A stretch of 64,000 bases of DNA. It comes from Paenibacillus albicereus. Its GTDB lineage: Bacteria > Bacillota > Bacilli > Paenibacillales > Paenibacillaceae. Below the pieces are notes generated by a model. It was given only the letters and a program-made list of their open reading frames with translations. It was not told where the DNA came from and ran no database searches. The DNA lies in assembly GCF_012676905.1 (NCBI RefSeq), contig NZ_CP051428.1, positions 349,501 through 413,500 of the forward strand, in the 5' to 3' direction. Of the stretch, positions 7,058 through 22,451 are shown piece by piece; within the stretch, counting starts at the first letter, position 1; the number at the start of each line of letters is the position of its first letter. The position numbers and the translations under genes were made by a program.

Positions 7058-9424
7058 ATGAAGGGATTTTCATTCGGAGGCGGATTGACGCTGGTCCATC
7101 TGGAGGCGAGCTCGCCGAGGCTGTTCGCGGCGGAGGACCAGCTGGACTGCCGGTACGTGAGGGCCTACTTCAAGCAGCAGGGCACGCCGACGGCGCAGTA
7201 CATCCAGGCCAGCCTGGCCGGGCGGTACGAGACGGCGGAGGACCTGCTCTCGCTCGGCAACGACGCGGTCGCCTTCCACGTCACGCCCGCCTCCTACCGT
7301 CTCTGCCGGGAGCTGAGCGGCACGCTCGCCGACCTCGACGGCTCGCTGCGGATCTTCTGGTTCGGCGAGTGGGCGGCCGAGCTGCCGGACCGCTCGCTGC
7401 CGGCGACGGTGGAGCGGCTGGTGCGCTCGGAGCCGGAGCGCGTCCTGCACCGGCTGCTTGAACCGGACGCGCCGGACGAGGCGGCCGACGAGATGGACGC
7501 GCTCGACGCCATCGCCGGCGTATGGGAGGAAGCGGCCTCGATGCGGCAGGCGCCGCTGCTGGCGGTCAAGGCTTCGGATCGGCTGGGAGGAGCATCCGCT
7601 CCGGACGGCCTCCGGCTGCACTCGCCGGAGCGGCTCGCCCGGGACATCCGGCTCGCGGCCGCGGCTTCCCGCCAGGCGCGGCCGGAGCTGCGGCTGATCG
7701 GCTACGAAGCGGCGACGGCCGACGAGGCGCGAGAGGCCGCCGTGGCCGAGGCGCTGGAGGCATGCGGGGGAAGCGCGACGTGGTCGGTCGAGCTGACGCT
7801 GGAGCGCTGGCGGAGCGGCGGAGCCGCCCGGCTCGCGGAGAGGGGCGCCAGCACGCTGACGCTGCGGCTGCCGGACAGCCTGGACGAGACGGAGCCTTTC
7901 CTCTCCGACATGCTCCGCGAGCTGAGGATTGCCTGGCCGGAGCTGCGGCTGCGTGTCGTGCTGGAGACGTCGCCTGGCAGCACGGAGTCGGGATCGAGGC
8001 GGGTCGCCGGGCAGCTGAGGCAGTGCCTGGACGAAGGGTTGCTCGCCCGGGATGCGATCACGGCCGCCATCCCCGCTGCCGCTGGTGCCGAGGCCCGCAT
8101 GCTGCTGCCCGCTCCGCTGGAGGAGCTGGCGCGTGAGCGGCTCGGATCGAGCTCGGAGGCGGCGCTCGTGAACGGCTTCCTCGCCTTCATGACCGGACAT
8201 TACCCGCCGCATGCCCTCGGAGGGGGCGCCAAGCATATCGGCGTCGACGAGGACGGCTGGAGGCCCGAGACGATCCGGCGCATGGGCGAGCATTCCGCCC
8301 TCAACAGCGCGATCTTTTTCGAACAAAACCAAGAAAACAGGGACGAAAGCTTGGATATAATAGAGCCGCCGATCTTCTACGATCAGGACGGCAGGTGGAA
8401 GCGGCTGGACCGCCGCTTCGACCGGGCCGGCGGCGAGGCCGAGCGCGAAGGTGTCTATCTCTCCAACGCCAATCGGCTGGATCGCGACGAGAGCGGCCGC
8501 TGGCAGCTGCGGCTGAACGACTTTCTGCTGGCCGAGCCGATCTCGCTGCAGCGCCAGCGCTATGAGGAAGCCGCGGCCGAGGACGGCGCGTGTGAGCCCG
8601 CCGCCTTCCGGCTGCTGGAGCTCCGCAGCGAGCGCGACCTTGATCGGTTCCTCGACGACGTGGACGGGTTCAGCCGCACGGGACGCTTCGCCCATGGCTA
8701 TGAAGTCCAGTCGCATGTAATGGACAGCTGCCGCTGGTCGGCGGCGGGCGCCTGCTCGGCCCGCAAGCTGCCGAGGCTGTTCGCGGACAAGGAGGGCGAG
8801 GTGGCCTCCTGCCGGGGCTGCGCGCCGATCGGGCATCTGGACGACACGCCGGACCAGCTGCTGCTGCAGGCCGCGGTGCTGTCCGACCAGGAGCAGCTGC
8901 TGCGCGGCTGCAGCTCCTGCGAGATCCGCTCGACCTGCTCCCAGTGCGCGTTCCTGCCTCCCTACATGACGGCCTCGCAGTATTGCGCCATCCGCCGCGA
9001 GCACGTCATGCTCCATCGCTACATGCAAGTGGTGCAGCTGGTCAAAGGGCTTCGCCGGCATACCCAAGCGCTGTCCGCGCTGGACGCCGAGACGCTGCTC
9101 GTCTCGCTGCCGACCTGCACCCACTACTACCCTCACCCCGGCATGGCCGCGCGTCCTTCGCTCGTCAGCGAGGCGGTGTTCCTCTTGACGACGGACGGTA
9201 CGCCGGTGCTGTACCAGGCCGTCAGCCAAAAGGTGCTCAAGCTCAGCGAGCCGATGGCGCTGCTGCTCGAAGGGCTGATGGTCGGCGCGACCGAAGCCGA
9301 GCTGGCCGAGGCGCTGCAGGCGAAGTACGGCACGGAGCCGGCCTACGCCGCCGCCGCCGTCTCGCAGGCGATCGAGCAGTTCAGCCGCCAAGGCTGCCTC
9401 CATCTGCCCGCACGGGCATCGTGA
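7058..9424 (+). CDS. daptide-type accessory protein with SPASM-like cysteines and C-terminal RRE (MpaC-like)
   Basis: 788 aa from ATG 7058, which follows GAGGAGGAGACGG; longer starts lack a ribosome site. The N-terminal half reads like a degenerate B12-binding/TIM-barrel architecture but has no CxxxCxxC radical-SAM motif. Cysteines cluster at C558 and C566, C585 and C588, C618-C621-C627-C630 (CSSCEIRSTCSQC) and C643, a SPASM-like pattern for auxiliary iron-sulfur or zinc binding. Residues 705-785 fit a PqqD-like RiPP recognition element. Family knowledge: in daptide biosynthesis an accessory protein with a C-terminal RRE brings the precursor to the oxidative decarboxylase. It is the first gene of the operon, 17 nt before the aminotransferase. 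The daptide role is inferred from architecture and neighbours. Confidence 0.65.
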   Translation: MKGFSFGGGLTLVHLEASSPRLFAAEDQLDCRYVRAYFKQQGTPTAQYIQASLAGRYETAEDLLSLGNDAVAFHVTPASYRLCRELSGTLADLDGSLRIFWFGEWAAELPDRSLPATVERLVRSEPERVLHRLLEPDAPDEAADEMDALDAIAGVWEEAASMRQAPLLAVKASDRLGGASAPDGLRLHSPERLARDIRLAAAASRQARPELRLIGYEAATADEAREAAVAEALEACGGSATWSVELTLERWRSGGAARLAERGASTLTLRLPDSLDETEPFLSDMLRELRIAWPELRLRVVLETSPGSTESGSRRVAGQLRQCLDEGLLARDAITAAIPAAAGAEARMLLPAPLEELARERLGSSSEAALVNGFLAFMTGHYPPHALGGGAKHIGVDEDGWRPETIRRMGEHSALNSAIFFEQNQENRDESLDIIEPPIFYDQDGRWKRLDRRFDRAGGEAEREGVYLSNANRLDRDESGRWQLRLNDFLLAEPISLQRQRYEEAAAEDGACEPAAFRLLELRSERDLDRFLDDVDGFSRTGRFAHGYEVQSHVMDSCRWSAAGACSARKLPRLFADKEGEVASCRGCAPIGHLDDTPDQLLLQAAVLSDQEQLLRGCSSCEIRSTCSQCAFLPPYMTASQYCAIRREHVMLHRYMQVVQLVKGLRRHTQALSALDAETLLVSLPTCTHYYPHPGMAARPSLVSEAVFLLTTDGTPVLYQAVSQKVLKLSEPMALLLEGLMVGATEAELAEALQAKYGTEPAYAAAAVSQAIEQFSRQGCLHLPARAS

Positions 9425-9441
9425 ACGAAAGGAGATCCGAC

Positions 9442-10848
9442 ATGCGGAACCATCCCTCTGCAAGCCAGGACCAACCCGCCGCCGGCGCTGCTCGCGCCGC
9501 CGATCCGGCGGCTGCGCCGCCGCCCGTCCTGCAGCCGCCCGGCTACCCGATCGTCCATCCGCTCAAGGACGTCCGTCTGGGCGAAGCCTTCCCCTCCTTC
9601 GCGGCGGGAGACGGCATCTACGTCCAGGACACGAACGGCAAGACCTATATCGACGGCATCAGCGGGCTCTGGAACGTCTCGCTCGGCTACCGCCATCCCG
9701 GCATCCGCCAGGCGATCGTCGACCAGCTCGACCGGCTGCCCTACGTCAACCCTGTCGACGGCGCCAATCCGACGACGCTCGCATTCGCCGAGACGCTGCT
9801 GCGCCTGACGCCGCCGTCTCTGGCCAAGGTCGCCTATACGTGCACCGGCTCGGAGTCGGTGGAGCTGGCGATCAAGCTCATCCGCAAGTTCCATCAGCTG
9901 TCGGGACGGCCGGAGCGCACGCTCATCGCGGTGCTCGACAAGTCCTACCACGGCACGTACTACGGCTCGATGAGCGCAAGCGGCATCGACCAGGAGATTT
10001 CGGAGAGCTACGGCCCCAAGGTGCCCGGCTTCCGGTTCCATCCCGTGCCGCTCGGCGACGACGGCAAGCCGGCCGTGCTGGAGGGCGAGCTGCTGGAGCG
10101 CCGGCTGGCGGAGCTGGAGAGGCTGTTCGCGGAGGAGGAAGGCCGTCTCGGCGGCATCATCCTCGAGCCGATCATCGGGTCGGGCGGCATCCTGCCGCTG
10201 CCGGACCGCTACCTGCGGAGAATCCGCGAGCTGTGCGACGCCTCCGGCGTCCTGCTCGCCTTCGACGAGGTGGCAACGGGCATGGGCCGCACGGGACGCA
10301 TGTTCGCCTTCGAGCACAGCGGCGCGACGCCCGACATCCTCTGTTTGTCCAAAGGCATCAACAGCGGCTACCTGCCGCTCGGCGCGACGCTGTTCAGCGA
10401 CGCGATCTACCAGGCGTTCGCCCGGGCCGGCTCTCATATCGAGCATCTGTCGACGCAGAACGGCAATCCGATCGCCTGCGCCGCCGGCCTCGCGACCGTC
10501 GAGGCGCTGGAGCAGCCCGGGCTTCTGGCCGAGGTGACCCGCAAGGGCGAGCTGCTCCGCCACCTGCTCAACGAAGCGCTGGCCGCGAATCCGCTGTACC
10601 TCGAGACACGGGGACAAGGGCTCATGATCGGCGTCGCCCTCACCTCGGACCGCTCGCAGCGGGCGCTGCTCGATGCAGACCGCCTGCGGGATGTCGTCGC
10701 CCGGCTGAAGCAGCGCGGCCTGCTCGTCTACCCGATCCATACGCCCGGCGTGACGACCGGCTTCCACCTGTTCCCTCCGCTGATTATCGAGGACGGCGAG
10801 ATCCGCAAGATCGTCCAGATCATCGCCCGCTCGCTGGGAGGGAGGTGA
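9442..10848 (+). CDS. class III PLP-dependent aminotransferase (daptide MpaD-like)
   Basis: 468 aa, ATG 9442 after AAGGAG. The fold-type I class III signatures are clear: FDEV with the pyridine-binding D275, LSKGINSGYLPLG with the Schiff-base lysine K304, and an N-terminal substrate region GISGLWNVSLGYRHP. The first 35 residues are Ala/Pro rich. In daptide pathways an aminotransferase of this class aminates the methyl ketone left after oxidative decarboxylation of the C-terminal Thr. Here it lies between the RRE accessory gene and the precursor array, which supports that role. By sequence alone it could also be an omega-amino acid or beta-alanine:pyruvate type transaminase. Confidence 0.8.
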   Translation: MRNHPSASQDQPAAGAARAADPAAAPPPVLQPPGYPIVHPLKDVRLGEAFPSFAAGDGIYVQDTNGKTYIDGISGLWNVSLGYRHPGIRQAIVDQLDRLPYVNPVDGANPTTLAFAETLLRLTPPSLAKVAYTCTGSESVELAIKLIRKFHQLSGRPERTLIAVLDKSYHGTYYGSMSASGIDQEISESYGPKVPGFRFHPVPLGDDGKPAVLEGELLERRLAELERLFAEEEGRLGGIILEPIIGSGGILPLPDRYLRRIRELCDASGVLLAFDEVATGMGRTGRMFAFEHSGATPDILCLSKGINSGYLPLGATLFSDAIYQAFARAGSHIEHLSTQNGNPIACAAGLATVEALEQPGLLAEVTRKGELLRHLLNEALAANPLYLETRGQGLMIGVALTSDRSQRALLDADRLRDVVARLKQRGLLVYPIHTPGVTTGFHLFPPLIIEDGEIRKIVQIIARSLGGR

Positions 10849-10856
10849 GCGCGAGC

Positions 10857-10988
10857 ATGAATCCGGCCAAGCATGACCTGGCCTCGCCGCTGGAGCTGCC
10901 TCCGGCCGAGCCGGAAGCGGAGTCCGTCGTCATCTCCCGGCTGCGGGCCTGCCTGCATCGCATCGGCAGCTTCCTTTCCTTCCGCTGA
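10857..10988 (+). CDS. 43-aa putative precursor peptide with acidic leader and cationic C-terminus
   Basis: The start ATG 10857 is 8 nt after GGAGGTGA, which overlaps the aminotransferase stop. The first 23 residues are Pro/Glu rich (LELPPAEPEAES); the last 20 are amphipathic and cationic, with RLRACLHRIGSFLSFR at the end: one Cys, three Ser, four Arg and one His. The plan is that of a leader plus core peptide. Unlike the seven main precursors, its C-terminal part offers Cys and Ser residues that a YcaO cyclodehydratase could use. No family recognised. Confidence 0.6.
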   Translation: MNPAKHDLASPLELPPAEPEAESVVISRLRACLHRIGSFLSFR

Positions 10989-11032
10989 CCGATCCGCGAC
11001 CTGTCCTTCATTCCGCCTAGGAGGTGATACCC

Positions 11033-11119
11033 ATGATGGCAATCTGGCCTCTTCCGTTCCCGAAGCTTCCGATTCCGTTCCCGCATCCGTTCCCGATCGA
11101 TCCGATCATCTTCTTCTAA
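11033..11119 (+). CDS. 28-aa proline/phenylalanine-rich peptide
   Basis: ATG 11033 (ATGATG) sits 7 nt after the very strong CTAGGAGGTGAT, the same kind of ribosome site used by the precursors that follow. The peptide has nine Pro and six Phe in 28 residues, with PFPKLPIPFPHPFP in the middle and IIFF at the end. It has no recognisable leader and no Cys, Ser or Thr. I know no family like it. It may be a structural, regulatory or antimicrobial peptide of the cluster, or a relic; its ribosome site argues it is translated. Confidence 0.5.
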   Translation: MMAIWPLPFPKLPIPFPHPFPIDPIIFF

Positions 11120-11162
11120 TCGCTAGCATCCCGAGTGCATTCCATTCCAGGAGGTGAATTCC

Positions 11163-11273
11163 ATGAACGAAATCTCCCTGCAGCTCGAAGAGCTGGAAGC
11201 CGTCGCGGCTCCTGGCTGGCAAGATACGGTCGTCATCATCGCGATCGGTCTGGGCATCGCGGCCCTCACCTAG
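11163..11273 (+). CDS. daptide-like precursor 1
   Basis: 36 aa after AGGAGGTGAATTCC. The leader reads NEISLQLEELEAV and ends in AAPG; the core (WQDTVV onward) is hydrophobic with Gly and closes with AALT. The C-terminal residue is Thr, the residue converted in daptides. It is the most divergent of the seven, the only one not ending in AFT, and has an internal Thr (WQDT). Confidence 0.8.
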   Translation: MNEISLQLEELEAVAAPGWQDTVVIIAIGLGIAALT

Positions 11274-11323
11274 GTTTTGAACCCCGCGTCAAGCGCTTGA
11301 TTCCACGAGAGGAGGTGAAATCC

Positions 11324-11437
11324 ATGAAGAACCTGTCCCTGCAGCTCGAAGAGCTCGAGGCGGTCGCCGCTCCGGTCGATTGGGGCGATGTCGCGATCGG
11401 CGTCGGCATCGGCATCGGCGTCATCGCCTTCACGTAA
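11324..11437 (+). CDS. daptide-like precursor 2
   Basis: 37 aa, ribosome site GAGGAGGTGAAATCC. Leader KNLSLQLEELEAV, junction AAPVDW, core with alternating Gly and Ile/Val and terminal VIAFT. The core has no Cys or Ser, and its only Thr is the last residue. The Gly-rich hydrophobic segment would make a short membrane helix. Confidence 0.85.
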   Translation: MKNLSLQLEELEAVAAPVDWGDVAIGVGIGIGVIAFT

Positions 11438-11482
11438 TCCGTGTTCTCCTGCATTCGAGATTCGGCCAAGGAGGTGAAATCC

Positions 11483-11599
11483 ATGAAAAACCTGTCCCTG
11501 CAGCTCGAGGAGCTCGAAGGCGTGACCGCGCCGGACTGGCAAGACGTCGCGATCGGCATCGGCATCGGCATCGGCATCGGAGCGATCGCCTTCACGTAA
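11483..11599 (+). CDS. daptide-like precursor 3
   Basis: 38 aa, ribosome site AAGGAGGTGAAATCC. Same leader family as precursor 2 (SLQLEELEGV), junction TAPDW, and a core with five Gly at every second position ending AIAFT. Sequence and spacing suggest that precursors 2 and 3 are a duplication. Confidence 0.85.
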   Translation: MKNLSLQLEELEGVTAPDWQDVAIGIGIGIGIGAIAFT

Positions 11600-11642
11600 T
11601 CGATCGGCCTGATTCAGCTTCCATAGAAAGGAGGCCAAATCC

Positions 11643-11768
11643 ATGAACCAAGCTCTGTCCCTCCAGCTGGAGGAACTGGAAACCGTCGCGGCACCGGGCG
11701 ACGGCGCGTACATCGCCGGCGTAGCGGTAGGCGTCGCGATCGGCATCGGCATCATCGCCTTCACGTAA
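11643..11768 (+). CDS. daptide-like precursor 4
   Basis: 41 aa, ribosome site GAAAGGAGGCCAAATCC. Leader NQALSLQLEELETV, junction AAPGDGAY, core with AGVAVGVAIG and terminal GIIAFT. Nearly identical to precursor 6. Confidence 0.85.
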   Translation: MNQALSLQLEELETVAAPGDGAYIAGVAVGVAIGIGIIAFT

Positions 11769-11809
11769 TTCCCTATCCAACCCAATTCTATTGAAAGGAG
11801 GAACCATCC

Positions 11810-11947
11810 ATGAACCGATCCCTGAACCTGCACATGGAGCTGCTCGAAGACGTAGCCGCCCCCGGCGACGCGCAAGACTTCGTCGAAGGCGTAGCCGTCG
11901 GCCTGGGCGCCGTCGCAGCCGTCGTCGGCATCATCGCCTTCACGTAA
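11810..11947 (+). CDS. daptide-like precursor 5 (second leader type)
   Basis: 45 aa, ribosome site GAAAGGAGGAACCATCC. The leader differs from precursors 1-4: NRSLNLHMELLEDV. Junction AAPGDAQDF, core with EGVAVGLGAVAA and terminal GIIAFT. Nearly identical to precursor 7. Confidence 0.85.
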   Translation: MNRSLNLHMELLEDVAAPGDAQDFVEGVAVGLGAVAAVVGIIAFT

Positions 11948-11987
11948 GGCCAACCCCCCTCATTCTTCGAAAAAGGAGGCCAAACCC

Positions 11988-12113
11988 ATGAACCAAGCCC
12001 TGTCCCTGCAGCTGGAGGAACTGGAAGCCGTCGCGGCTCCCGGCGACGCGGAATACATCGCCGGCGTAGCGGTAGGCGTCGCCATCGGCATCGGCATCAT
12101 CGCCTTCACGTAA
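11988..12113 (+). CDS. daptide-like precursor 6
   Basis: 41 aa, ribosome site AAAAAGGAGGCCAAACCC. It differs from precursor 4 in only a few residues (leader EAV for ETV; AAPGDAEY for AAPGDGAY). Terminal GIIAFT. Confidence 0.85.
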   Translation: MNQALSLQLEELEAVAAPGDAEYIAGVAVGVAIGIGIIAFT

Positions 12114-12201
12114 TCGCGGCCTTACTTAACCGAGATCGACCCTTTTCACCCTATCCTGGCCTTGATCCAACCCAAACCTATTATCCAAGGAGGAATCATC
12201 C

Positions 12202-12339
12202 ATGAACCAATCCCTGAACCTGCATATGGAACTGCTTGAGGACGTATCCGCTCCAGGCAGCGGCAAAGACTTCGTCGAAGGCGTAGCCGTCGGCCTGGGC
12301 GCTGTCGCAGCCGTCACCGCCATCATCGCCTTCACCTAA
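12202..12339 (+). CDS. daptide-like precursor 7 (second leader type)
   Basis: 45 aa, ribosome site CAAGGAGGAATCATCC. Leader NQSLNLHMELLEDV, junction SAPGSGKDF, core ending TAIIAFT. It is the partner copy of precursor 5. Of the GIIAFT/AIIAFT peptides it is the only one with an extra Thr (near the C-terminus) and a Ser at the junction. Confidence 0.85.
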   Translation: MNQSLNLHMELLEDVSAPGSGKDFVEGVAVGLGAVAAVTAIIAFT

Positions 12340-12402
12340 GACCTGCTGGACGAACGATCGCCCGCTTGACCCGGCTGAGCCTCTCAGCCGCTTGAGATGG
12401 GA

Positions 12403-12444
12403 GACTCTCTCCCCGCCTGGACGCTGGAGCCGGGCGGGGGAGTC
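12403..12444 (+). other. stem-loop between precursor array and protease gene
   Basis: GACTCTCTCCCCGCC (12403-12417) pairs imperfectly with GGCGGGGGAGTC (12433-12444). There is no T run, so it is more likely to set the ratio of precursor to downstream mRNA, by stabilisation or partial termination, than to act as a full terminator. Confidence 0.45.
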
Positions 12445-12536
12445 CTCCCCATGACGCTGCGCATCGACGGCTTGCCGCCCTTTTTCACGACTTTGGCTTT
12501 TCTTCTGGACACTATGAACGATTCGAGGTGAACGAG

Positions 12537-13733
12537 ATGTCGACCGCATCAGCCTTCGATATCCATGAGATCGAAAACAACCTGTTCCTGGTTCAACATA
12601 GATCAAGCCGCAAGTTCATCCGCATGGGACCGCGCGAGACGGAGTACCTGCAATATCTCGCCTCGACACCCGCCGCCGCGAGCTCCGCTCCGCAGGGCGA
12701 GGCGGCCGAGCAGGCCGCCCCCTACGCCGGCAGCCTATCGGAGGAGGAGCAGGCTTATCTCGCCTCCAAGTTCGGCGAATGGGGCTTCCTCGACCCGGCC
12801 GTGCCGGAGGAGGAAGCGGCCGGCACCCGCAAGTGGCGCTTCAACTGGCGCATCGACGATCTGACGACGATCAAGTTCTTCTCCGTCGATCCCGACGCCT
12901 GGCTGGACCGCCGGCTGCCGCTCATCCGCTCGCTGCTCCATCCGGCGGCGATCGCGGCCTACGGGCTTGTCATGCTCGGCGCCCTCGCGCTGCTGCTGGC
13001 GCAGCCGCAGCTGGCCGTCGGCCTCGACCCGTACGGCCTCGGCTGGGCCCAGTACGCGGCGATCTACGCGATGATCGTCCTGACGACAGTCATCCACGAG
13101 CTCGGCCACGGCATGACGTGCAAATACTACGGCGGACGCGTGAAGCAGATGGGCGCGATGCTGTTCTACTTCAGCCCGGCGATGTTCTGCGACGTGAGCG
13201 ACACGTATACGTTCCGGCGCAGGCGGCATAAGATGGCGGTGCTGGCGGCAGGCGTGTTCAGCCAGTGGCTGCTCTCCTCGCTCGCGATCCTCGCCTACGG
13301 CGGGCTCCAAGCGGCCGGAGCGCAGCCGTCGGAGCTGCTGCTGTATTACGCCTTCGCCAACGTCGGCATGAGCGTGCTCAACCTGATGCCGCTCGTCAAG
13401 CTCGACGGCTACTGGATGCTGAGCCACTGCCTCGGCATCGCCAACCTGCGGAGCAAGGCGTTCCGCTCTCTCTGGAGCCTGCTGCGCCTGCCCGGCCCCC
13501 GCGATCCGATCGCGGCAAGCCCCCCGAGCCGCCGGGAGCGCTCGATCCTGCTCGCCTACGGCGCGGCGGCGGCGGCGTTCACCCCCTGCTTCTGGCTCTG
13601 GGGCATCCTGCAGGTGCAGGAGCGGCTGCAAGGCTGGATCGGCGCCTTCAGCTTCCTCGTGACCGCCGGCATCGCGGTCGTCATGCTCTATCACATGGGC
13701 AAGTTTTTCCGGACGATGAGACAGCCGGCTTAA
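12537..13733 (+). CDS. M50-family intramembrane metalloprotease (leader peptidase candidate)
   Basis: 398 aa. ATG 12537 is chosen because GAGGTG just upstream is its ribosome site; the GTG inside that site would give three extra residues. The zinc motif HELGHG lies at H187-H191 and the third ligand in VKLDGYWML at D290, with several membrane spans around them. The first 90 residues resemble a PqqD-like/winged-helix fold (HEIENNLFLVQHRSSRKF), which in such proteases can recognise the leader. Known daptide clusters include an intramembrane metalloprotease. Here it follows the seven precursors and precedes the exporter, so leader removal at the membrane is the likely task. Confidence 0.8.
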   Translation: MSTASAFDIHEIENNLFLVQHRSSRKFIRMGPRETEYLQYLASTPAAASSAPQGEAAEQAAPYAGSLSEEEQAYLASKFGEWGFLDPAVPEEEAAGTRKWRFNWRIDDLTTIKFFSVDPDAWLDRRLPLIRSLLHPAAIAAYGLVMLGALALLLAQPQLAVGLDPYGLGWAQYAAIYAMIVLTTVIHELGHGMTCKYYGGRVKQMGAMLFYFSPAMFCDVSDTYTFRRRRHKMAVLAAGVFSQWLLSSLAILAYGGLQAAGAQPSELLLYYAFANVGMSVLNLMPLVKLDGYWMLSHCLGIANLRSKAFRSLWSLLRLPGPRDPIAASPPSRRERSILLAYGAAAAAFTPCFWLWGILQVQERLQGWIGAFSFLVTAGIAVVMLYHMGKFFRTMRQPA

Positions 13734-13766
13734 CCGGCTCCAAACCAAGACAAGGTGGGATATGAG

Positions 13767-14663
13767 ATGGGACTGGAAATCAATCACTTAATCAAGCGCT
13801 ACGGAGGGAAGACGGTGCTGCACGGCATCTCGCTCGAAGCGCGCACCGGCCAGGCGTTCGGCCTGCTCGGCGGCAACGGGGCGGGCAAGACGACGACGAT
13901 CCGCTCCGTCCTCGGCCTGGTCGAGTACGAGTCCGGCTCCATCACCTGGGACGGCAAGCCGATCCAGGACAACCGCCCGAGCATCGGCTATCTGCCGGAG
14001 GAGCGCGGCCTGTATCCGAAGGAGAAGGTCAGCGAGCAGCTCATCTACTTCGCGATGCTAGAGGGACTGTCCCGGCCGGCGGCGGTCAAGGCGATGCGCG
14101 GCTGGCTGGAGCGGCTCGGCATCGCCGAGCACGAGGGCAAGCGCGTCGAGCAGCTGTCCAAGGGCAATCAGCAGAAGGTGCAGATCATCTCCTCGCTCAT
14201 CCACGATCCCGAGCTGGTCATCCTCGACGAGCCGTTCAGCGGCCTCGACCCGGTCAACTCCGACATGCTGGCATCCGTCGTGCAGGACCAGCTGAAGCTG
14301 GGCAAGACGATGATTTTCTCCAGCCACCAGATGGGCCAGGTCGAGCGGTTCTGCGACTATGTGTGCATTCTCAAGCGCGGCCAGATGACCGTCTCCGGCA
14401 AGCTGGCCGACATCAAGCGCTCCTACGGGCGCACGAGCCTGCTGCTGCGCAGCGAGCAGGACTTGACCCCGCATCTGGCGACGTTCGGCATGCAGCCGGT
14501 CGAGGAGTCGCTCCATGAGTGGCAGGTCAAGGTCGACAGCGAGGAGCAGGCCCACGGCCTCATGCAGTCGATGGCGGGCGCGGGCGTGAAGCTGCTCAAG
14601 TTCGAGCTCAAGGAGCCGACGCTCCATGAAATCTTCATTGAAAAGGTAGGCGAAGGAGCATGA
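13767..14663 (+). CDS. ABC transporter ATPase (peptide export)
   Basis: 298 aa from ATG 13767, after AAGGTGGGA; the upstream GTG lies inside that site. Walker A GGNGAGKTT at about 35-43, signature LSKGNQQK at about 131 and Walker B VILDEP at about 151, then a C-terminal region as in NatA/YhaQ-type ATPases. It overlaps the permease gene by four bases (ATGA). With the permease it probably exports the mature peptides or gives self-protection. Confidence 0.9.
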   Translation: MGLEINHLIKRYGGKTVLHGISLEARTGQAFGLLGGNGAGKTTTIRSVLGLVEYESGSITWDGKPIQDNRPSIGYLPEERGLYPKEKVSEQLIYFAMLEGLSRPAAVKAMRGWLERLGIAEHEGKRVEQLSKGNQQKVQIISSLIHDPELVILDEPFSGLDPVNSDMLASVVQDQLKLGKTMIFSSHQMGQVERFCDYVCILKRGQMTVSGKLADIKRSYGRTSLLLRSEQDLTPHLATFGMQPVEESLHEWQVKVDSEEQAHGLMQSMAGAGVKLLKFELKEPTLHEIFIEKVGEGA

Positions 14664-15904
14664 AGCAGTTCGGCCTTGTATTCCGGTATTCCTTCCGGGA
14701 GCGTCTCCGGTCCAAATCGTTCACGCTGACGATCTACATCGCGGCGGTGCTGCTGGCGGCGCTCATCTTCCTCCCCAAGGTATTGCAGTCGGATGGCGGC
14801 GAATCGGTCGACGGTACGGTCGCCGTCGTCAACAAGACCGACTTGGCGTTGACGCCGGAAAGCCTCGCGCAAGGCGTGTCGCCCTCGTACGCCTGGAAGC
14901 TTGTCGAGCCGTCCGGGGAAGCCGAGGCCCGCGCGCAGCTGGCCAAGGACGACGACAGCCTGCTCGGCCTGGCGGCGATCGAGGAGAAGGACGGCAAGCC
15001 GGTGCTCTCGCTGACAGTCAACAAGCTTGACGACGCGCCTTATGCCGAAGCGCTTGGGACCTACGTCCAAGGGGTCTACACGGCAAGCGAGCTCGGCAAG
15101 CTGACGCTGGATCCGGCGCAGAAGGAGCGCGTGACCGCGGCCTTGCAGCTCGACGTGCAGGAGCTCAAGGCGGGCAGCAAGTCGGCCCTCGTCATGTATT
15201 TGCCGGTCTACCTCATCACCTTCATGCTCTACCTGCTGATCTACCTGTTCGGCGGCAACGTGGCCGTCTCCGTCTCGGTCGAGAAGAGCTCCCGCATCAA
15301 GGAAATCCTCATCACCAAAGTAAAGCCGGAGCAGCTGCTGTTCGGAAAGGTGTTCGGCGTCGGCCTCGCCGGCCTGCTGCAGTTCGTCCTCATCCTGGGC
15401 ATTGGCTACGGCATGCTTCTCGCCTCCGGCTCGGGCGGAGCGCTCGATTTGTTCGGCTTCACGGTCGACTTCTCGATGCTGGGCGCCAAGACGATCGCCC
15501 TGCTCGTACTGTTCTTCATCCTCGGCTACTTCTTCTACGCGGCGCTGTTCGCCGCCTGCGGCTCGCTCGTCAGCCGCAGCGAGGAGGTCAACGGCATGAT
15601 CCTGCCGGTCTCGGTCATCATGATGGGTGGCTTCCTGGTCGCGCTGATCTCGCTCGGCTCTCCGGACGGCAGCCTCGCCGTCGTCAGCTCCTACATCCCG
15701 TTCGCGACGCCGTTCACGATGTTCGTCCGGGTCGGGATGACCGAGCCGACCTGGACCGAGATTCTCGTGCCGACGCTCATCCTGCTCGCCTCCACGGGCA
15801 TCGCCTGCTGGATTTCCGCCAAAATCTATCAGGTCGGCGTCCTGCTCTACGGGCAGAAGCCGACGCCGAAGCTGATCTACAAAGCGCTTCGGTCGACGAT
15901 GTAA
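14660..15904 (+). CDS. ABC-2 type permease (NatB-like)
   Basis: 414 aa. One N-terminal membrane span (residues 20-40), a large extracytoplasmic domain (about 45-175), then five or six spans from residue 176 on. This is the NatB/ABC-2 layout. Translationally coupled to its ATPase. Likely function: efflux of, or immunity to, the hydrophobic RiPP products. Confidence 0.85.
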   Translation: MKQFGLVFRYSFRERLRSKSFTLTIYIAAVLLAALIFLPKVLQSDGGESVDGTVAVVNKTDLALTPESLAQGVSPSYAWKLVEPSGEAEARAQLAKDDDSLLGLAAIEEKDGKPVLSLTVNKLDDAPYAEALGTYVQGVYTASELGKLTLDPAQKERVTAALQLDVQELKAGSKSALVMYLPVYLITFMLYLLIYLFGGNVAVSVSVEKSSRIKEILITKVKPEQLLFGKVFGVGLAGLLQFVLILGIGYGMLLASGSGGALDLFGFTVDFSMLGAKTIALLVLFFILGYFFYAALFAACGSLVSRSEEVNGMILPVSVIMMGGFLVALISLGSPDGSLAVVSSYIPFATPFTMFVRVGMTEPTWTEILVPTLILLASTGIACWISAKIYQVGVLLYGQKPTPKLIYKALRSTM

Positions 15905-15916
15905 GGAGGGGCGCAC

Positions 15917-16765
15917 ATGGCGATAGACATCACCAAGGTGGCGCCGCCCGCCCGATCTGTCCCGATCCCGCCTCCGGCCGTCCGGCCGGAAGGGGCGGCG
16001 GCCCGGCCGCTGCTCGGCCAGTGGGCGATGGTGACCGGGGCCGGGCGCGGCATCGGCGAGGAGATCGCGCGGCAGTTCGCCGCCTCCGGCGCGTCGCTCG
16101 TCCTGACCGAGCTGCCGGAGCGCATGCCGCTGCTGGAGGAGAGCGCCGCCGCGCTGCGGCGGGAGCATGGCGTGCAGGCGAGCTGCCTGCCGCTCGACCT
16201 GCGCCGCATGGAGCAGGTCGAGGAGGCGGCCGCGCGCATCGGCGGCGAGGTCGAGGCGGGCGTGGACTACCTCGTCAACAACGCCGGCGTCAACCTGCTG
16301 CAGCCGGCGCTGACGCTCACGCAGGAGGAATGGGACTTTGTCGTGGACATCAATCTCAAGGGCACGTTTTTCCTCACCCGCGAGGTGGCCAAGGCGATGG
16401 TCCGCAAGAAGCGCGGCTCGATCGTCATGATCGCCTCGCAGCACGGCGTCGTCGCCAACGAGAACCGCGCTCCCTACTGCGCCAGCAAGGCCGGACTCAT
16501 CCATCTGTCCAAGGCGCTCGCGGTCGAATGGGCGAAATACGGCATCCGCGTCAACACAGTGTCGCCGACGTTCGTGCTGACCGAGGCGAGCGAGCCGCAT
16601 CTGACCGATCCGCAGTTCCTGCGGGCCAACCTGCCCAAGCTGCCGCTGCGCAAGTTCGCGACGCCGGAGGACATCGCCCGCTCGGCGCTGTTCCTGGCGA
16701 CGGACGCGGCCGGCATGATTACCGGGCATAACCTCGTCGTCGACGGCGGCTGGACCGCCCTCTGA
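15917..16765 (+). CDS. short-chain dehydrogenase/reductase (candidate oxidative decarboxylase of precursor C-terminal Thr)
   Basis: 282 aa. Classical SDR with TGAGRGIG (about 40-47), NNAG and the catalytic Y187xxxK191 in PYCASKAG preceded by the IAS serine. A 35-residue Pro/Ala-rich N-terminal extension precedes the Rossmann fold. It starts 13 nt after the permease. By chemistry, oxidation of the Thr side-chain alcohol gives a beta-keto acid that loses CO2, which is the first daptide step. I am not certain which fold the characterised daptide oxidative decarboxylase has, so the assignment rests on context and chemistry. Confidence 0.7.
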   Translation: MAIDITKVAPPARSVPIPPPAVRPEGAAARPLLGQWAMVTGAGRGIGEEIARQFAASGASLVLTELPERMPLLEESAAALRREHGVQASCLPLDLRRMEQVEEAAARIGGEVEAGVDYLVNNAGVNLLQPALTLTQEEWDFVVDINLKGTFFLTREVAKAMVRKKRGSIVMIASQHGVVANENRAPYCASKAGLIHLSKALAVEWAKYGIRVNTVSPTFVLTEASEPHLTDPQFLRANLPKLPLRKFATPEDIARSALFLATDAAGMITGHNLVVDGGWTAL

Positions 16766-16842
16766 CGGCCGGTGCGCCTGAGCCGACGGCCCGACCGGAA
16801 TCCCCCTTTTCGAGAATCCATCCTCCAGAAGCATCACCGCAA

Positions 16843-17020
16843 GCCGGATACCCGGCGGAGCGCATCCATAAGCAGCACCCGGCCGGATACCCGGCGAAGC
16901 GCATCCATAAGCAGCACCCGAGCCGGTTACCCGGCGAAACGCATTCATCGGCAGCGCCTTGAGCCGGATACCCGGCGGACACACAGCGGCGCCCTGAGCC
17001 GGAGTACCCGGCGAAGCCAG
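16843..17020. repeat. five tandem approximately 40-bp hairpin repeats
   Basis: Units start at 16843, 16882, 16922, 16963 and 16998 (spacing 39, 40, 41, 35). Each opens with GCCGGATACCCGGC or a close variant, a small self-complementary hairpin, followed in the first units by GAGCGCATCCATAAGCAGCA-like DNA. Unit lengths are not multiples of three, so it is non-coding. It fills most of the 370-bp gap between the dehydrogenase and the methyltransferase. Confidence 0.85.
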
Positions 17021-17135
17021 CATCTTCCGCAGCGGAGCCGACTCCCGGGCCTGGCGTCCGGCGGCTCCCGCGCAGGCGGGCGGCGCGGCGAAGCGGCACT
17101 CATCCCCATTCATTCGACGCGAGGAGGCGGTTGTA

Positions 17136-17960
17136 ATGTATTTCGGCGTATTCAAGGACTTGAGGAACCTGGGGCTGCCCGGCAGCCAGGATTTCGATCT
17201 GTATGAAGGGTACTATTCCGAGTTCTACGAGGCGGTGGCGGGCCGCACGGACTACGACATCCCGCTGCTGCTGGAGCAGGCGGCGGCGCTTGCGGGCGGC
17301 GGCAAGGTGCTGGAGCTGGCCTGCGGCTCGGGCCGCGTCCTGATGCATCTGGCCAATCGCGGCTTCCAGACGGTCGGCCTCGACCTGTCCGAAGATATGC
17401 TCAAGATGTGCCGCCGCAAGAGCGAGCTGCTGCCGCCGCGCCTGAAGAGCCGCATCGACGTGCGCCAAGGCGACATGACGAGCTTCGAGCTCGGCGAGGA
17501 GTTCCCCCTCATCATCCTGTCGGCGACGAGCATCAGCCTGCTGCGCGAGCGGAGCGACCTGGAGCGCATGCTGCAGGCGGTGGAGCGCCATCTGGCGGAC
17601 GGCGGACGGTTCATCTTCGACTACGTGCTGTCCAACGACATCCACAACAGCCAGCTGCGCGGCGGCCGCGTCAACGGCGTCACGCTCGATCTCGGGCCTG
17701 ACCACAAGCAGTTCGTCCTCATGGGCGAGGAGGAGAACCGGGAGGATCAGAGCGCGGTCATGAACTTCTACGCCGAGGTCATCCAGGGCGGGCAGACGAA
17801 GCGCTATTTCGGCTCTACGTTCAAGAAGTTCTTCCCCGAGGAGGACATCCACGCCTGCATCGCCGCTTCCGGCCTGCGCATCGCGGACTCCCGCCTGTAC
17901 AGCGTCGAGGGCGACGGCAACGTGCGCTGCCTGATTCTGGAGAAGGAGGCCGCCCGATGA
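17136..17960 (+). CDS. SAM-dependent methyltransferase (daptide MpaM-like candidate)
   Basis: 274 aa, start after GAGGAGGCGGTTGTA. Class I methyltransferase with motif I VLELACGSGRV at about 58-68 and the acidic GLDLSEDML. The N-terminal 50 residues (YYSEFYEAV) are typical of small-molecule N-methyltransferases. In daptides a methyltransferase dimethylates the new C-terminal amine. It overlaps the E1-like gene by four bases, so it is co-translated with the azoline module but separated from the daptide genes upstream by the repeat array. Confidence 0.75.
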   Translation: MYFGVFKDLRNLGLPGSQDFDLYEGYYSEFYEAVAGRTDYDIPLLLEQAAALAGGGKVLELACGSGRVLMHLANRGFQTVGLDLSEDMLKMCRRKSELLPPRLKSRIDVRQGDMTSFELGEEFPLIILSATSISLLRERSDLERMLQAVERHLADGGRFIFDYVLSNDIHNSQLRGGRVNGVTLDLGPDHKQFVLMGEEENREDQSAVMNFYAEVIQGGQTKRYFGSTFKKFFPEEDIHACIAASGLRIADSRLYSVEGDGNVRCLILEKEAAR

Positions 17961-18547
17961 GCGCCTTCGTCACGATTCTGGGCGGCGGGGGAGAGGGCGG
18001 CGAGGCCGAGCCGATCGCCGCCGCCCTGCGCGGCCTCGGCGTCGAGGCGCGCGCCGCGTCGGCGTTCGCCGAGATCGATCCCGGCAGCGACCTCGTGCTC
18101 GTGCTCCAGGCGGAGCTCCAGGGCGCCGCGTTCAACGCCTACGCCCTGGAGCATGGGCTGACGTGGCTGCCGGTCGCGTTCTCGCATACGGTCGGCCGCC
18201 TCGGCCCGATCATCATTCCCGGCGAAACGGCCTGCTACGACTGCCTGGAGCTGCGCGGACGCGCGAACGGCCTGCCGCCGCTCGCAGCCAAGCCGAGCCG
18301 GTTCGACCCGAGCTGGTCGATGGTCGCGTCGCTCGCCGTCATGGAGACGGTCAAGTGGCTGTCGCGCTCCACGAACAGCTTCGCGCCGCTGTCGCTCGGC
18401 CATCAGGTCGAGTTCGACGCCTTTCACCTCCAGGGCGAAGTGAATCCGGTGTACCGGCTGCCCACCTGCCCGTCCTGCGGGCTGCGCCATCAGGCGCGGC
18501 TCGCCGCCCAGCCATGGACCGAGGCCGGGCTGGTGCAGCTGCCATGA
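17957..18547 (+). CDS. truncated E1-like (ThiF/SagC-type) partner of YcaO
   Basis: 196 aa. The middle carries GPIIIPGETACYDCLELR with C93 and C96, and the C-terminus has CPSC at C171 and C174; together they form the zinc tetrathiolate typical of the E1-like C protein of azol(in)e RiPP cyclodehydratases. Such proteins usually have an N-terminal RRE of about 90 residues; here only a short Rossmann-like start is left. Leader binding may therefore depend on another RRE, for example that of the accessory protein. Coupled by ATGA overlaps to the methyltransferase and to ycaO. Confidence 0.7.
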   Translation: MSAFVTILGGGGEGGEAEPIAAALRGLGVEARAASAFAEIDPGSDLVLVLQAELQGAAFNAYALEHGLTWLPVAFSHTVGRLGPIIIPGETACYDCLELRGRANGLPPLAAKPSRFDPSWSMVASLAVMETVKWLSRSTNSFAPLSLGHQVEFDAFHLQGEVNPVYRLPTCPSCGLRHQARLAAQPWTEAGLVQLP

Positions 18548-19920
18548 GCCGCCAGCTGATCCGCCGCTGGAGCAGTTCGGCGCCTGCGGCTCCCGGCGCT
18601 CGCCGTCCCCGCGGTCCGGCGCTCGGCCTGACGGAGCCGCTGGCACGGGCGATCAGCCCGCAGGGCGGCATGGTGCGCGGGCTGATGAGCCTCAGCACCG
18701 ATCCCGGCGATCCGGCGCTGTTCCTCAGCCTCGCCGCTCCGGCCGATCCCAAGGCGTTCGGCGGCCGCCAGCACGGCCTGATCGACCGCTTCGCCAGCGG
18801 CATGGGCTTCACGCTCGAGGAGGCGAACGTATCCGCGGTGGCCGAGGCGGTCGAGCGCTACTGCGCCGCCTATGTCATTCCGGACCGCACCGTCTTCGCC
18901 TCGTGGCGCGAGCTGCGCGCCGAAGCGCTGCATCCCGGCGCGCTGCCGCTGTTCACGCCGGAGCAGCACGCGACGTGGCAGTTTCCGTACCAGCCGTTCA
19001 CCGAGGATGCGCGCATCCGCTGGGTGCCGGCGCGCTCGCTGGCGACCGGCCGCGAGAAATTCGTGCCGGCCGCGATCGCCTGGGATTCCTACGTCCCGCA
19101 GAGCGACGACGAGGCGGCGATCTGCTTCGGCCTCATGACCGGCTCGGCCGCCGGCTCGACGCTCGAGCAGGCGATGATCGGCGGGCTGCTGGAGATCATC
19201 GAGCGCGACGCCTTCATGATGATGTGGTACAACATGGCCTCGCTGCCGCGGCTCGACATCCGCGAGCATCCGCTGGCGCGTCCGTTCCGCGAGCTGCTCG
19301 ACGAGAGCCGCTTCGAGCTGTCGATCGTGGACACGACCGGCGACACGGGCATCCCGTCCGCGTTCGGCCTGCTCCAGACGAGCGACGGACGGGTCAGCTT
19401 CGGCGGCTCGGCGAGGCTCTCCATGGAAGAGGCTGTCGTCAAGACGCTCATGGAGATCAGCCAGCTGTTCATCGGCAACAAGGCGCAGATCTACGCCGAA
19501 GGTCTGCCGTCGCTGCTGCCCCATCAGATCACCGACTACGGCCTGCGGCTTCCGTATTACGAGCAGCCGTTCGCGCATGAGGAGCTGGCTTTCACGGCGG
19601 CCTCGCCGCTGCTGCATCCGGTGCCGCCCGCTCCGCCCGTCGCTTCCGCCTCCGAGGCGGAGCGGCTCGCGCATCTCGTCGGCGCCTTGCAGGCGCGCGG
19701 CCTGGAGCCGCTCTGCGTCGACGTCACGACGGACGACGTGCGCGAGCTCGGGCTGCATGTCGTCAAGATGATCGTGCCGGGCACGATCCAGCTGCCGCGC
19801 AGCGAGCGCGAGCGGCTGATTGCCAGCCGCCGCATCTACGACGTGCCGGTGGAGCTCGGCTGGCGCAGCTCGCCGATCGCGCCGTCCGAGCTCAACGTCA
19901 GCCCGCATCCGTTTCCTTGA
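18544..19920 (+). CDS. YcaO cyclodehydratase (azoline-forming type)
   Basis: 458 aa, ATG 18544 overlapping the E1-like stop. Conserved ATP-binding regions: AEAVERYCAAY with E101 and E104, and GGLLEIIERDAF with E217 and E220. The C-terminus is NVSPHPFP, a proline-rich PxPxP-like end characteristic of azoline-forming YcaO proteins and important for their catalysis. Family reaction: ATP-dependent cyclodehydration of Cys, Ser or Thr to azolines. Its E1-like partner is adjacent. Which peptide it acts on is the open question, because the main cores contain almost no such residues. Confidence 0.85.
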   Translation: MSRQLIRRWSSSAPAAPGARRPRGPALGLTEPLARAISPQGGMVRGLMSLSTDPGDPALFLSLAAPADPKAFGGRQHGLIDRFASGMGFTLEEANVSAVAEAVERYCAAYVIPDRTVFASWRELRAEALHPGALPLFTPEQHATWQFPYQPFTEDARIRWVPARSLATGREKFVPAAIAWDSYVPQSDDEAAICFGLMTGSAAGSTLEQAMIGGLLEIIERDAFMMMWYNMASLPRLDIREHPLARPFRELLDESRFELSIVDTTGDTGIPSAFGLLQTSDGRVSFGGSARLSMEEAVVKTLMEISQLFIGNKAQIYAEGLPSLLPHQITDYGLRLPYYEQPFAHEELAFTAASPLLHPVPPAPPVASASEAERLAHLVGALQARGLEPLCVDVTTDDVRELGLHVVKMIVPGTIQLPRSERERLIASRRIYDVPVELGWRSSPIAPSELNVSPHPFP

Positions 19921-20005
19921 CCGGCCTCGACCGGCTTCCATCTGCGTCCCTCGCGCCAGCTTGCGCGCCGCGGCCGCGACCAATAATCGACAAGGGCGTG
20001 ATCCT

Positions 20006-20776
20006 ATGCAATCCAAGTTCATCGACTGGCGCGCCGACGCGCTCGCCGGCGAAGAGTCTCTGTCCCTGACGTACCACCTCAATTCCAGCCACTACCCGCA
20101 GCTGGAGGTGCTGACCCGCTCCCGGATGAAAATGCTGCGCAAGCTGTTCGCGCAGATGAACGCGCCCGCGACGCCCGCCAAGCGGTATTTCTCCGCTCCG
20201 CGCGCCGCTCTGGGCGACGATCCCGAGGCGGCGGCCGAGGATCGGCTGAGCGCCCACCCGAGCCTGCGCCGGCTGCTGTGGCGGCTGCGCCGCATGCAGC
20301 CGGAGGCGCAGCCGTTCGCGGACTTCGGGCCGCTGGAGGAGCTCGGCGGCGCGGCGCTCGACTCGCCCGAGCTGTACATTCTCTCGCGGAGCTCGGCGAC
20401 GAACCGGCTCGAGCTGTTCTACTTCCATCCGCACGGCGACTGCCTGCAGGAGCTCGGCGCTCCGGACGAGGAGCGGTGCTCGGCGCTGTTCGACCCGGCG
20501 GTGAGCGCCGGACCGCTGCAGGGCGCGATCTTCGTCGCCGCCAATCTGCACCGGTCGCTGCAGCTGTTCGGCGAGCGCGGCTACCGGCTTAGCCTGCTGG
20601 AGGGGGGCCGCCTGACCGAGCGGCTCTCCGCCTGCTCGCCCGGCAGCGGGCTGCGGGTGCAGCCGGTGCTCGGCTTCTACGACAGCCGCGTGCATCAGCT
20701 GCTCGGGCTCGACGGCCACTATGAAGTCGCGCTGAGCTGCCTGCTGCTGCAGGCCGAGCCGGAGGGAGCCCGATGA
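20006..20776 (+). CDS. SagB-like nitroreductase-fold protein (azoline dehydrogenase candidate)
   Basis: 256 aa from ATG 20006, weak site AAGGGCGTG. The N-terminus has the SagB-like SLTYHLNSSHYP; the C-terminal half has the nitroreductase pattern ERGYRLSLLEGGRL, LGFYDSRVHQLLGLDGHYE and a final hydrophobic strand. SagB-type flavoenzymes oxidise azolines to azoles with FMN. The middle part is divergent, and whether it still binds FMN cannot be decided by eye. Position after ycaO and coupling to the GntR gene support membership in the azole module. Confidence 0.6.
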   Translation: MQSKFIDWRADALAGEESLSLTYHLNSSHYPQLEVLTRSRMKMLRKLFAQMNAPATPAKRYFSAPRAALGDDPEAAAEDRLSAHPSLRRLLWRLRRMQPEAQPFADFGPLEELGGAALDSPELYILSRSSATNRLELFYFHPHGDCLQELGAPDEERCSALFDPAVSAGPLQGAIFVAANLHRSLQLFGERGYRLSLLEGGRLTERLSACSPGSGLRVQPVLGFYDSRVHQLLGLDGHYEVALSCLLLQAEPEGAR

Positions 20777-21276
20777 AAGACCGCACCGAGCCGCTCCCCC
20801 TCCTCCCCGGGGAGCTGCCGCTGCGCGTCGCTCCGGACAGCGCGCAGCCTCTTTACGCCCAGCTGGAGGCTCAGCTGCGCGAGCTGATCCACAGCGGGGC
20901 GCTGCCGGAGGACAGCCAGCTGCCCAGCTTGCGGGATCTCGCCTCGAAGCTGGGCTGCAGCCTCATCACCGTCCGCCGCGTCTACCTGGATTTGGAGCGC
21001 GAAGGCCTGCTGACGATTTCCAAAGGCATCGGCACGTTCGTCTGCCGCCGCGGCTCGGAGCGTTCCGCGCGTCGGGCATGGTCGAAGGCGCTCGTGCAGG
21101 AGGCTTTCCGCAGCGCGGTCGCGACCGGCTCCAAGTATGGCCTGAAGCCGGATGAGATGCGGCGGCTGCTGGAGGACCAGCTCGAGGGGAGCGACTCGGG
21201 ACCTACGGCGGACTCGGGCGGAGACGAGCCGGAGGGCGGGCGCCCGCCCGATCCGCGGCCCCCGGCGAAGGCCTGA
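20773..21276 (+). CDS. GntR-family (YtrA-like) transcriptional regulator
   Basis: 167 aa, overlapping the previous stop (ATGA). The N-terminal winged helix is clear: PLYAQLEAQLRELIHSG, LPSLRDLASKLGCS and ITVRRVYLDLEREGLL. Only a short effector/dimerisation tail follows, as in the YtrA subfamily, and the last 35 residues are low-complexity Gly/Pro. YtrA-type regulators often control ABC exporters linked to peptide antibiotics. It is the last gene of the cluster and may repress it. The effector is unknown. Confidence 0.85.
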   Translation: MKDRTEPLPLLPGELPLRVAPDSAQPLYAQLEAQLRELIHSGALPEDSQLPSLRDLASKLGCSLITVRRVYLDLEREGLLTISKGIGTFVCRRGSERSARRAWSKALVQEAFRSAVATGSKYGLKPDEMRRLLEDQLEGSDSGPTADSGGDEPEGGRPPDPRPPAKA

Positions 21277-21530: not shown

Positions 21531-22451
21531 ATGGAGCAAGCGGGGAGAGGGATGGAGCAGGCGATGAGGGAAAGCGTCGAGGCGCACTTCGTGCTGCCGC
21601 AGCTGAAAGAGATGGCGCGCGCCTGCCTGGAGCAGAAGCTGCGGGAGTCGATGCTGTTCGGCAAGATGACGATGCTTCATTACCGCATGTACAAGGGCGG
21701 GGACGACGAGCGGATCTTCCGCGCCGCAGCGGCGGTGGAGCTGATGATCCTGAGCCTCGACATGATCGACGACGTGCAGGACCGGGACAATCCGGCGGTT
21801 CCGTGGAGCGCCTACCGCCCGGAGATCACGCTGAACCTGGCGCTCGGCATGCTGATGATCGCCCAGCGGCTGCTGCTGGAGAGCGGCTTCGAGCCGGAGC
21901 GGGCGCAGCAGGCCGCGAGGCTGCTCAGCATGCAGGTGCTGACCGCCGTGCACGGGCAGACGCTCGACCTGCTCAACGACATCCCCGACGAGGATGCCTA
22001 TCTGGCGATGGTCAGCCAGAAGTCGGCGGCGCTGCTCGTCTGCGGCTGCATGATCGGCACGGTGCTTGCCACCGGGGAATGGAAGGAGCAGGTGCGCAGC
22101 TACGCCGAGCAGCTCGGCATCGCCGCCCAGATCAAGAACGACATCCGCGATCTGGCCAACTGGACGGACAAGAACGACTTCCTGAACCGCAAGCTCACGC
22201 TGCCGACGCTGTTCCTGTTGCAGGCCGTCACGGACGAGGACCGCTGGGTGCTCGACTACTACGAGGGCCGGCTCTCGATGGAGGAGGTCCGCCACCGGCG
22301 CGAGGAGCTGGAGGCGATCCTGGAGAAGACCGGCACGATGCTCTACTCGTCGGTGCGCATGCGCACGCACTACTACCGCTTCCTGGAGCTGCTGGAGCAG
22401 CTGGAGCTGGAGGATGGCTGGCGCGACCAGATGCTTGCCCTGGCGGAGTAA
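21531..22451 (+). CDS. comQ: ComQ isoprenyl transferase (ComX maturation)
   Basis: 306 aa from ATG 21531 behind GGGGGGAATGGG; a second in-frame ATG at 21552 is possible. All-helical prenyltransferase-like protein with first Asp-rich motif DDVQDRD (D80-D86) and second motif NDIRDL (D204, D207). ComQ transfers an isoprenyl group to a Trp of the ComX pre-pheromone and takes part in its release. Followed by comX, comP and comA in canonical order, which makes the identification firm despite sequence divergence from Bacillus. Confidence 0.85.
   Translation: MEQAGRGMEQAMRESVEAHFVLPQLKEMARACLEQKLRESMLFGKMTMLHYRMYKGGDDERIFRAAAAVELMILSLDMIDDVQDRDNPAVPWSAYRPEITLNLALGMLMIAQRLLLESGFEPERAQQAARLLSMQVLTAVHGQTLDLLNDIPDEDAYLAMVSQKSAALLVCGCMIGTVLATGEWKEQVRSYAEQLGIAAQIKNDIRDLANWTDKNDFLNRKLTLPTLFLLQAVTDEDRWVLDYYEGRLSMEEVRHRREELEAILEKTGTMLYSSVRMRTHYYRFLELLEQLELEDGWRDQMLALAE

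Follow-up and report, generated by a model that had tools for sequence, protein, structure and literature searches.

The cyanobactin heterocyclases TruD, LynD and MusD are single proteins with a leader-binding N-terminus that act on internal Cys, Ser and Thr residues. For actinobacterial daptides, the available text of Dommaraju et al. 2025 (PMC12338566; journal version PMC12670281) describes a reconstituted pathway: an oxidative decarboxylation is followed by transamination and methylation, after which a YcaO converts the mono-methylated diamine to a 3,4-dimethylimidazoline (PMC12338566). The main text of Ren et al. 2023 (PMC10036551) places YcaO, an azoline dehydrogenase (TIGR03605) and a short-chain dehydrogenase/reductase (SDR; PF13561) among the families of daptide clusters, and reports the SDR-type dehydrogenase for clusters of Bacillota. 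Here we analyzed a 64,000-nucleotide stretch of the Paenibacillus albicereus genome (contig NZ_CP051428.1, positions 349,501 to 413,500; hereafter, the window), in which positions 7058-21276 hold one daptide cluster, with every gene on the + strand, that also carries genes for an E1-like protein, a YcaO and a SagB-like protein. We think it probable that this is a Bacillota daptide cluster with a captured azoline synthetase (E1-YcaO-SagB) reduced to a C-terminal imidazoline cyclase; in the peptides, the last Thr would probably be converted to a ring that carries a charge.

Gene content and conservation of the cluster

A preliminary description of this DNA had named daptide genes together with azoline-type genes. 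Both sets were located by profile matches within the one locus (Table 1), and the 5.17-Mb genome, a single contig, has its sole YcaO match here. The NCBIfam daptide cut-offs were exceeded by the protease, the aminotransferase, the methyltransferase and four precursors tested of seven (NF041808, cut-off 25), and ATGA stop/start overlaps join methyltransferase to E1, E1 to YcaO and SagB to the GntR-type gene. In that description, daptides and azol(in)e-bearing ribosomally synthesized and post-translationally modified peptides (RiPPs) had been treated as separate classes, whereas YcaO and TIGR03605 are both listed for daptide clusters in the main text of PMC10036551. A dehydrogenase is present as described, but it is of the short-chain type (PF13561) and not the iron alcohol dehydrogenase (Fe-ADH) of actinobacterial clusters; following the role assignment in the main text of PMC10036551, this SDR is likely the oxidative decarboxylase of the C-terminal Thr.

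The daptide protease model matched 111 of 394 family genomes (E ≤ 0.001), 11 of them above the cut-off, and a twelfth locus carrier (G251) scored 295.9 bits, narrowly under the cut-off of 300. The locus comparison comprised the window, 11 other full loci and six weaker protease-match loci. The order DapB, aminotransferase, protease, SDR, methyltransferase, E1, YcaO, SagB was invariant in all 12 full loci, counting G382, whose contig begins 3' of DapB and the aminotransferase; the eight-gene set was found in none of the six weaker loci. Homologous clusters thus keep both modules, the co-occurrence that the preliminary description had proposed to check, and since set and order recur in 12 loci the co-location is not due to chance. 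Carriers of the full cluster include P. ihuae, P. auburnensis, three Saccharibacillus species and P. pasadenensis, the nearest named relative at the locus (93% YcaO identity).

The DapB-type protein gave a weak match in the profile search with the NCBIfam model for daptide RiPP recognition element (RRE) proteins (45.2, cut-off 150). Ten Cys residues, all within its C-terminal half, are invariant in an alignment of seven. The structure model has a mean predicted local distance difference test (pLDDT) score of only 51, and in this low-confidence model the N-terminal half may be a radical-SAM-like barrel without CxxxCxxC, followed by a Cys-rich stretch.

Precursor peptides

The seven precursors of the window are short and have Glu-rich leaders, as daptide precursors do. 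Across the 12 loci, the precursor regions contain 76 leader-bearing open reading frames (ORFs), and Thr is the last residue of every one, in a search that left that residue free; these 76 include near copies, 50 being distinct. Leu precedes the terminal Thr in 40 of them and Phe in the other 36. Cys is absent from every core, and 26 of the 76 (five of seven in the window) have no Ser or Thr besides the terminal one, much as the preliminary description had noted for the main cores. A core rich in Cys, Ser and Thr, as in azol(in)e RiPPs, was therefore not found, and from the sequences the C-terminus is the sole candidate position for modification common to all 76 cores. With main cores so nearly devoid of these residues, the YcaO should act at the terminus or perform other chemistry.

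Four daptide clusters on Streptomyces plasmids bear on the residue before Thr. It is Leu in 8/8 precursors of the two clusters with a YcaO, and Met or Ala in 8/8 precursors of the two without an annotated YcaO, in which tblastn for YcaO (E ≤ 0.01, 20 kb) returned no match. That Leu goes with the presence of YcaO is suggestive, being a comparison of two clusters with two, all four of which also encode LanKC.

Two small ORFs, X1 and X2, are probably the two extra peptides once put forward as YcaO substrates. X2-type ORFs lie upstream of the precursors in the window and in L044. In L042, five leaderless, Pro-rich, hydrophobic mini-peptide ORFs with ribosome-binding sites occur before and between the daptide precursors. 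This placement favors a reading in which E1, YcaO and SagB serve another substrate (X1/X2 or an unlinked precursor) and merely share the locus. However, both peptides are poor substrate candidates, as the X2 of the window has no Cys, Ser or Thr and X1 is recognizable by eye in only two of 12 regions, and the translational overlap of methyltransferase, E1 and YcaO in the window, together with their constant order with the methyltransferase, makes such a separate role extremely unlikely.

The E1-like protein, the YcaO and the proposed pathway

The E1-like protein lacks the N-terminal, leader-binding part of TruD-type enzymes. Its profile alignment begins at about residue 128 of TruD, and its length of 196 aa leaves no room for an RRE, so the E1/F partner with a leader-binding RRE that typifies azol(in)e RiPPs is missing. 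Four Cys of zinc type (93, 96, 171, 174) are invariant. The YcaO, judged by its sequence, looks intact: it is of SagD type, with the PxPxP end (PHPFP in 14/14 copies) of azol(in)e RiPPs, and it lies within a daptide cluster, as in imidazoline daptides.

The SagD-type score of the YcaO, and the presence of at least one other Ser or Thr in 50/76 cores, would suit a classical hybrid, in which the YcaO forms (methyl)oxazolines at internal Thr or Ser of some precursors and the daptide enzymes work at the C-terminus. We find this quite improbable, because the remaining 26 cores offer no such residue, Cys is lacking throughout, the E1 has no RRE and the SagB-like protein lacks its motifs. The same four observations speak against the azol(in)e product of the preliminary description. 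Its suggestion of a new C-terminal cyclization came close to the 2025 result for actinobacterial daptides, but not in the form given, a methyloxazoline from Phe-Thr, since the known route first strips the Thr carboxylate and swaps its oxygen for an amine.

Daptide YcaOs have been shown to cyclize a methylated C-terminal diamine, and re-use of an azoline synthetase as a C-terminal imidazoline cyclase is therefore the best explanation of this locus. An imidazoline made by YcaO, as reported in the available text of PMC12338566, resolves the puzzle of a YcaO without a Cys, Ser or Thr substrate. In the proposed pathway, DapB would bind the leader and recruit the SDR. Oxidation and decarboxylation of the last Thr by the SDR would leave an aminoacetone, which the aminotransferase would turn into a 1,2-diamine, and to this the methyltransferase would add one methyl. 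The YcaO, helped by the short E1, would use ATP to link the secondary amine with the carbonyl of the residue before it, Phe or Leu, giving a C-terminal 3,4-dimethylimidazoline, and peptides escaping the YcaO would gain a second methyl and end in a tertiary amine. Cleavage after ...AP would fall to the protease, and export to the ABC pair. The SagB-like protein would not oxidize the ring, serving instead as a structural subunit or in an independent role, and it and the short E1 would be remnants of the captured synthetase. We infer the same chemistry for these proteins, and the participation of the E1, by analogy with the actinobacterial pathway; capture of the synthetase is inferred from the gene set, a point on which the YcaO tree is not decisive.

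Several observations weigh against an imidazoline cyclase. The YcaO of the window scores 274.6 with TIGR03604, compared with 128.6 for a Streptomyces daptide YcaO, and looks nearer to an ordinary azoline former. In the tree it is distant from, and does not group with, the two Streptomyces daptide YcaOs used for comparison (TfDapY and SaDapY themselves being left out), and a single clade was not rejected (approximately unbiased test, AU, p 0.33). Two of the 12 clusters, L048 and L052, carry additional Ser or Thr in all cores. Azuritide 3 of S. azureus, with a YcaO adjacent, ends in a tertiary amine without a ring according to the available text of PMC12338566, and in an Actinomyces oris cluster with a YcaO, the last residue of a precursor-like ORF is Ile instead of Thr. 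Finally, the available texts on the two characterized imidazoline pathways (PMC12338566, PMC12670281) mention neither E1 nor SagB, so an E1 is not needed there; for PMC12670281, SagB, ThiF, E1-like and ComX are unmentioned in the main text, the supplements being outside that search.

If the imidazoline reading is true, the locus would show how enzymes for making azoles can be pared down to ring closure at a peptide terminus. It would also bring Bacillota into the imidazoline daptides, adding ends derived from Phe and a multi-subunit cyclase.

The SagB-like protein

In its structure model, the SagB-like protein folds like the azoline oxidases McbC, ThcOx and BmdC. We compared 15 copies (the 12 full loci plus L036, L040 and L056) with six control SagBs from plasmid records selected among the search matches. 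Leu-Phe or Leu-Leu replaces the Lys-Tyr of all six controls in every copy, the flavin motif PS[GA]Gx[LR]Y (PSGGALYP) is present in 6/6 controls and 0/15 copies, and RRSxR, present in all controls, was not found at the expected place in the copies. Tyr260 of BmdC is the active-site Tyr (PMC8795117); it was equated with the KYG of our alignment on an assumed offset of two residues. The FMN dehydrogenase with Lys-Tyr and flavin motifs that characterizes azol(in)e RiPPs is thus missing.

These losses, along with a score under the TIGR03605 cut-off, make it very doubtful that the cluster is a full imidazole maker, in which the YcaO imidazoline would be oxidized by SagB to a C-terminal 1,5-dimethylimidazole (-50.984 Da). 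Such a product would agree with a SagB-like gene of azoline-oxidase fold in 12/12 full clusters and a gene set identical to that of azole makers, and as residues 1-60 are poorly modeled (pLDDT ~40-59), flavin could be bound through other residues. Should the imidazoline reading hold, this protein would be a naturally occurring SagB without catalytic activity, useful for probing the role of the dehydrogenase subunit in such complexes.

The SagB-like profile was matched in 24 of 388 family genomes, 12 with the full cluster and 12 lacking it; for G046, G157 and G068, of which 2.7-3.7 kb were seen, absence was inferred from the protease-model search. The frame is open in ten of the 12 genomes lacking the full cluster and broken in G068 and G217. 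Among the ten open copies (G290 and G069 are also counted in the set of 15), the Lys and PSGGALY occur in none and the Tyr in one (G293). YcaO sequence persists in 3/12: G048, G069 and, within its short stretch, G068. For the pair G295/G290, neither of which has a YcaO match, the ratio of nonsynonymous to synonymous substitution rates (dN/dS) is 0.11 at dS 0.39; it is 0.19 for the cluster-bearing pair of the window and P. pasadenensis. On the evidence of that one pair the gene may still be useful in G295 and G290. G290 retains pieces of DapB and the protease, so cluster loss there was maybe recent. In G248, G157, G169 and G046, positions around the former active site that do not vary in other copies have drifted, which fits slow decay.

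Immediately downstream of the cluster is a ComQXPA quorum-sensing cassette (21534-25935). At 12 comQ loci without the full cluster, chosen by hand from the list of comQ genes, SagB is present in eight (one a fragment), DapB in three, E1 and YcaO in two, the SDR in one, a methyltransferase fragment in one, and the aminotransferase and protease in none. Retention of SagB at comQ may be explained in part by position alone, because the two genes adjoin. That the SagB-like protein is a dead azoline oxidase standing outside biosynthesis, kept as a self-protective peptide binder or tied to ComQXPA, appears to us rather unlikely. Its open frame in 10/12 genomes lacking the full cluster and the dN/dS of 0.11 in one pair support such a departure from biosynthesis; the active-site drift in four genomes weakens it.

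Neighboring genes and related loci

Both comQ and comX were found downstream in 11/11 other loci tested; at L052 (G251), comQ was not found within 20 kb. With comQ-like genes in 132 of 388 family genomes, they are not confined to daptide carriers. The adjacency suggests a route for inducing the cluster in laboratory cultures. Between the SDR and methyltransferase genes (16824-16977), a 39-bp unit is repeated 3.8 times.

Related loci were seen elsewhere. In L054 (G171) and L055 (G198), of Paenibacillaceae, daptide-like leaders (EELELVDAP) precede cores ending in MGC/VGC or FCS, with an M50-type protease, and L054 has a frame resembling E1/MccB, in which there are an ATP-type motif and, at the C-terminus, hydrophobic segments; these loci are perhaps another RiPP type. 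L107 (G474) encodes relatives of DapB, the aminotransferase and the SDR, and on the same contig a thiopeptide-like precursor ending CSTCGSSSCSSCCT, possibly a thiopeptide with a daptide-type end. On an Actinomyces oris plasmid (L108), daptide methyltransferase, aminotransferase and Fe-ADH genes occur with a YcaO.

Table 1. Features of the daptide cluster and its surroundings, in window positions except for the last row.
Feature	Position	Strand	Evidence and remarks
DapB-type RRE protein	7058..9424	+	788 aa; ATG 7058 3' of ribosome-binding site; PqqD/RRE-like C-terminus, ~residues 705-783
Daptide aminotransferase (DapD/MpaD type)	9442..10848	+	NF041821 509.7 bits, cut-off 450
Small ORF X1	10857..10988	+	begins MNPAKHD; recognizable in window and nearest relative
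X2, leaderless Pro-rich peptide MMAIWPLPFPKLPIPFPHPFPIDPIIFF	11033..11119	+	similar ORFs in L044, L042
Precursor A1	11163..11273	+	ends ALT
Precursor A2	11324..11437	+	ends AFT
Precursor A3	11483..11599	+	ends AFT
Precursor A4	11643..11768	+	ends AFT
Precursor A5	11810..11947	+	ends AFT
Precursor A6	11988..12113	+	ends AFT
Precursor A7	12202..12339	+	ends AFT
Daptide intramembrane metalloprotease	12528..13733	+	HExxH (HELGH); NF041824 422 bits, cut-off 300
ABC transporter ATPase	13755..14663	+	PF00005
ABC-2 permease	14660..15904	+	PF12698
SDR dehydrogenase (Bacillota DapC type)	15917..16765	+	PF13561 217.9 bits
Daptide N-methyltransferase	17136..17960	+	NF041820 247.1 bits, cut-off 175
E1-like partner	17957..18547	+	196 aa; TIGR03882 46.1, cut-off 36.9
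YcaO cyclodehydratase	18544..19920	+	458 aa, ends PHPFP; TIGR03604 274.6 bits, cut-off 219.25
SagB-like pseudo-oxidase	20006..20776	+	TIGR03605 45.4, under cut-off 78.4
GntR-type regulator	20773..21276	+	PF00392; start overlaps SagB-like stop
comQ	21534-22451		alternative start 21477
comX	22731-22910		PF05952 35.8 bits, cut-off 25
comP	22977-25298
comA-like	25270-25935
X2-type mini-peptide ORFs of L042	8122-8184, 8226-8282, 8545-8634, 8878-8976, 9208-9306

Comparison with known systems

That daptide clusters may encode a YcaO and an "azoline dehydrogenase" is already known from the main text of PMC10036551 (2023). New are the short E1, the pseudo-SagB, the persistence of the SagB-like gene after cluster loss and the ComQXPA neighbor; SagB, ThiF, E1-like, TIGR03882 and ComX are unmentioned in that main text, the supplements being outside that search.

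TruD, LynD and MusD are the closest solved relatives of both the E1 and the YcaO, which here are separate proteins. In contrast to the azoline oxidases McbC, BmdC and ThcOx, the SagB-like protein of the window is missing the catalytic and flavin motifs. With the Bacillota daptides, as far as the main text of PMC10036551 describes them, the window cluster shares the PF13561 dehydrogenase, many precursors and a short protease. The tfDap (Thermobifida fusca) and saDap (Streptomyces azureus) clusters, in the available text, are alike in having the daptide genes and a YcaO with a PxPxP end, and in cores conserved solely in the C-terminal Thr, with Leu preceding the Thr in their solved product. Compared with these two, the cluster of the window adds the E1-like and SagB-like proteins, has an SDR in place of the Fe-ADH and a larger DapB, and carries either Phe or Leu before the Thr.

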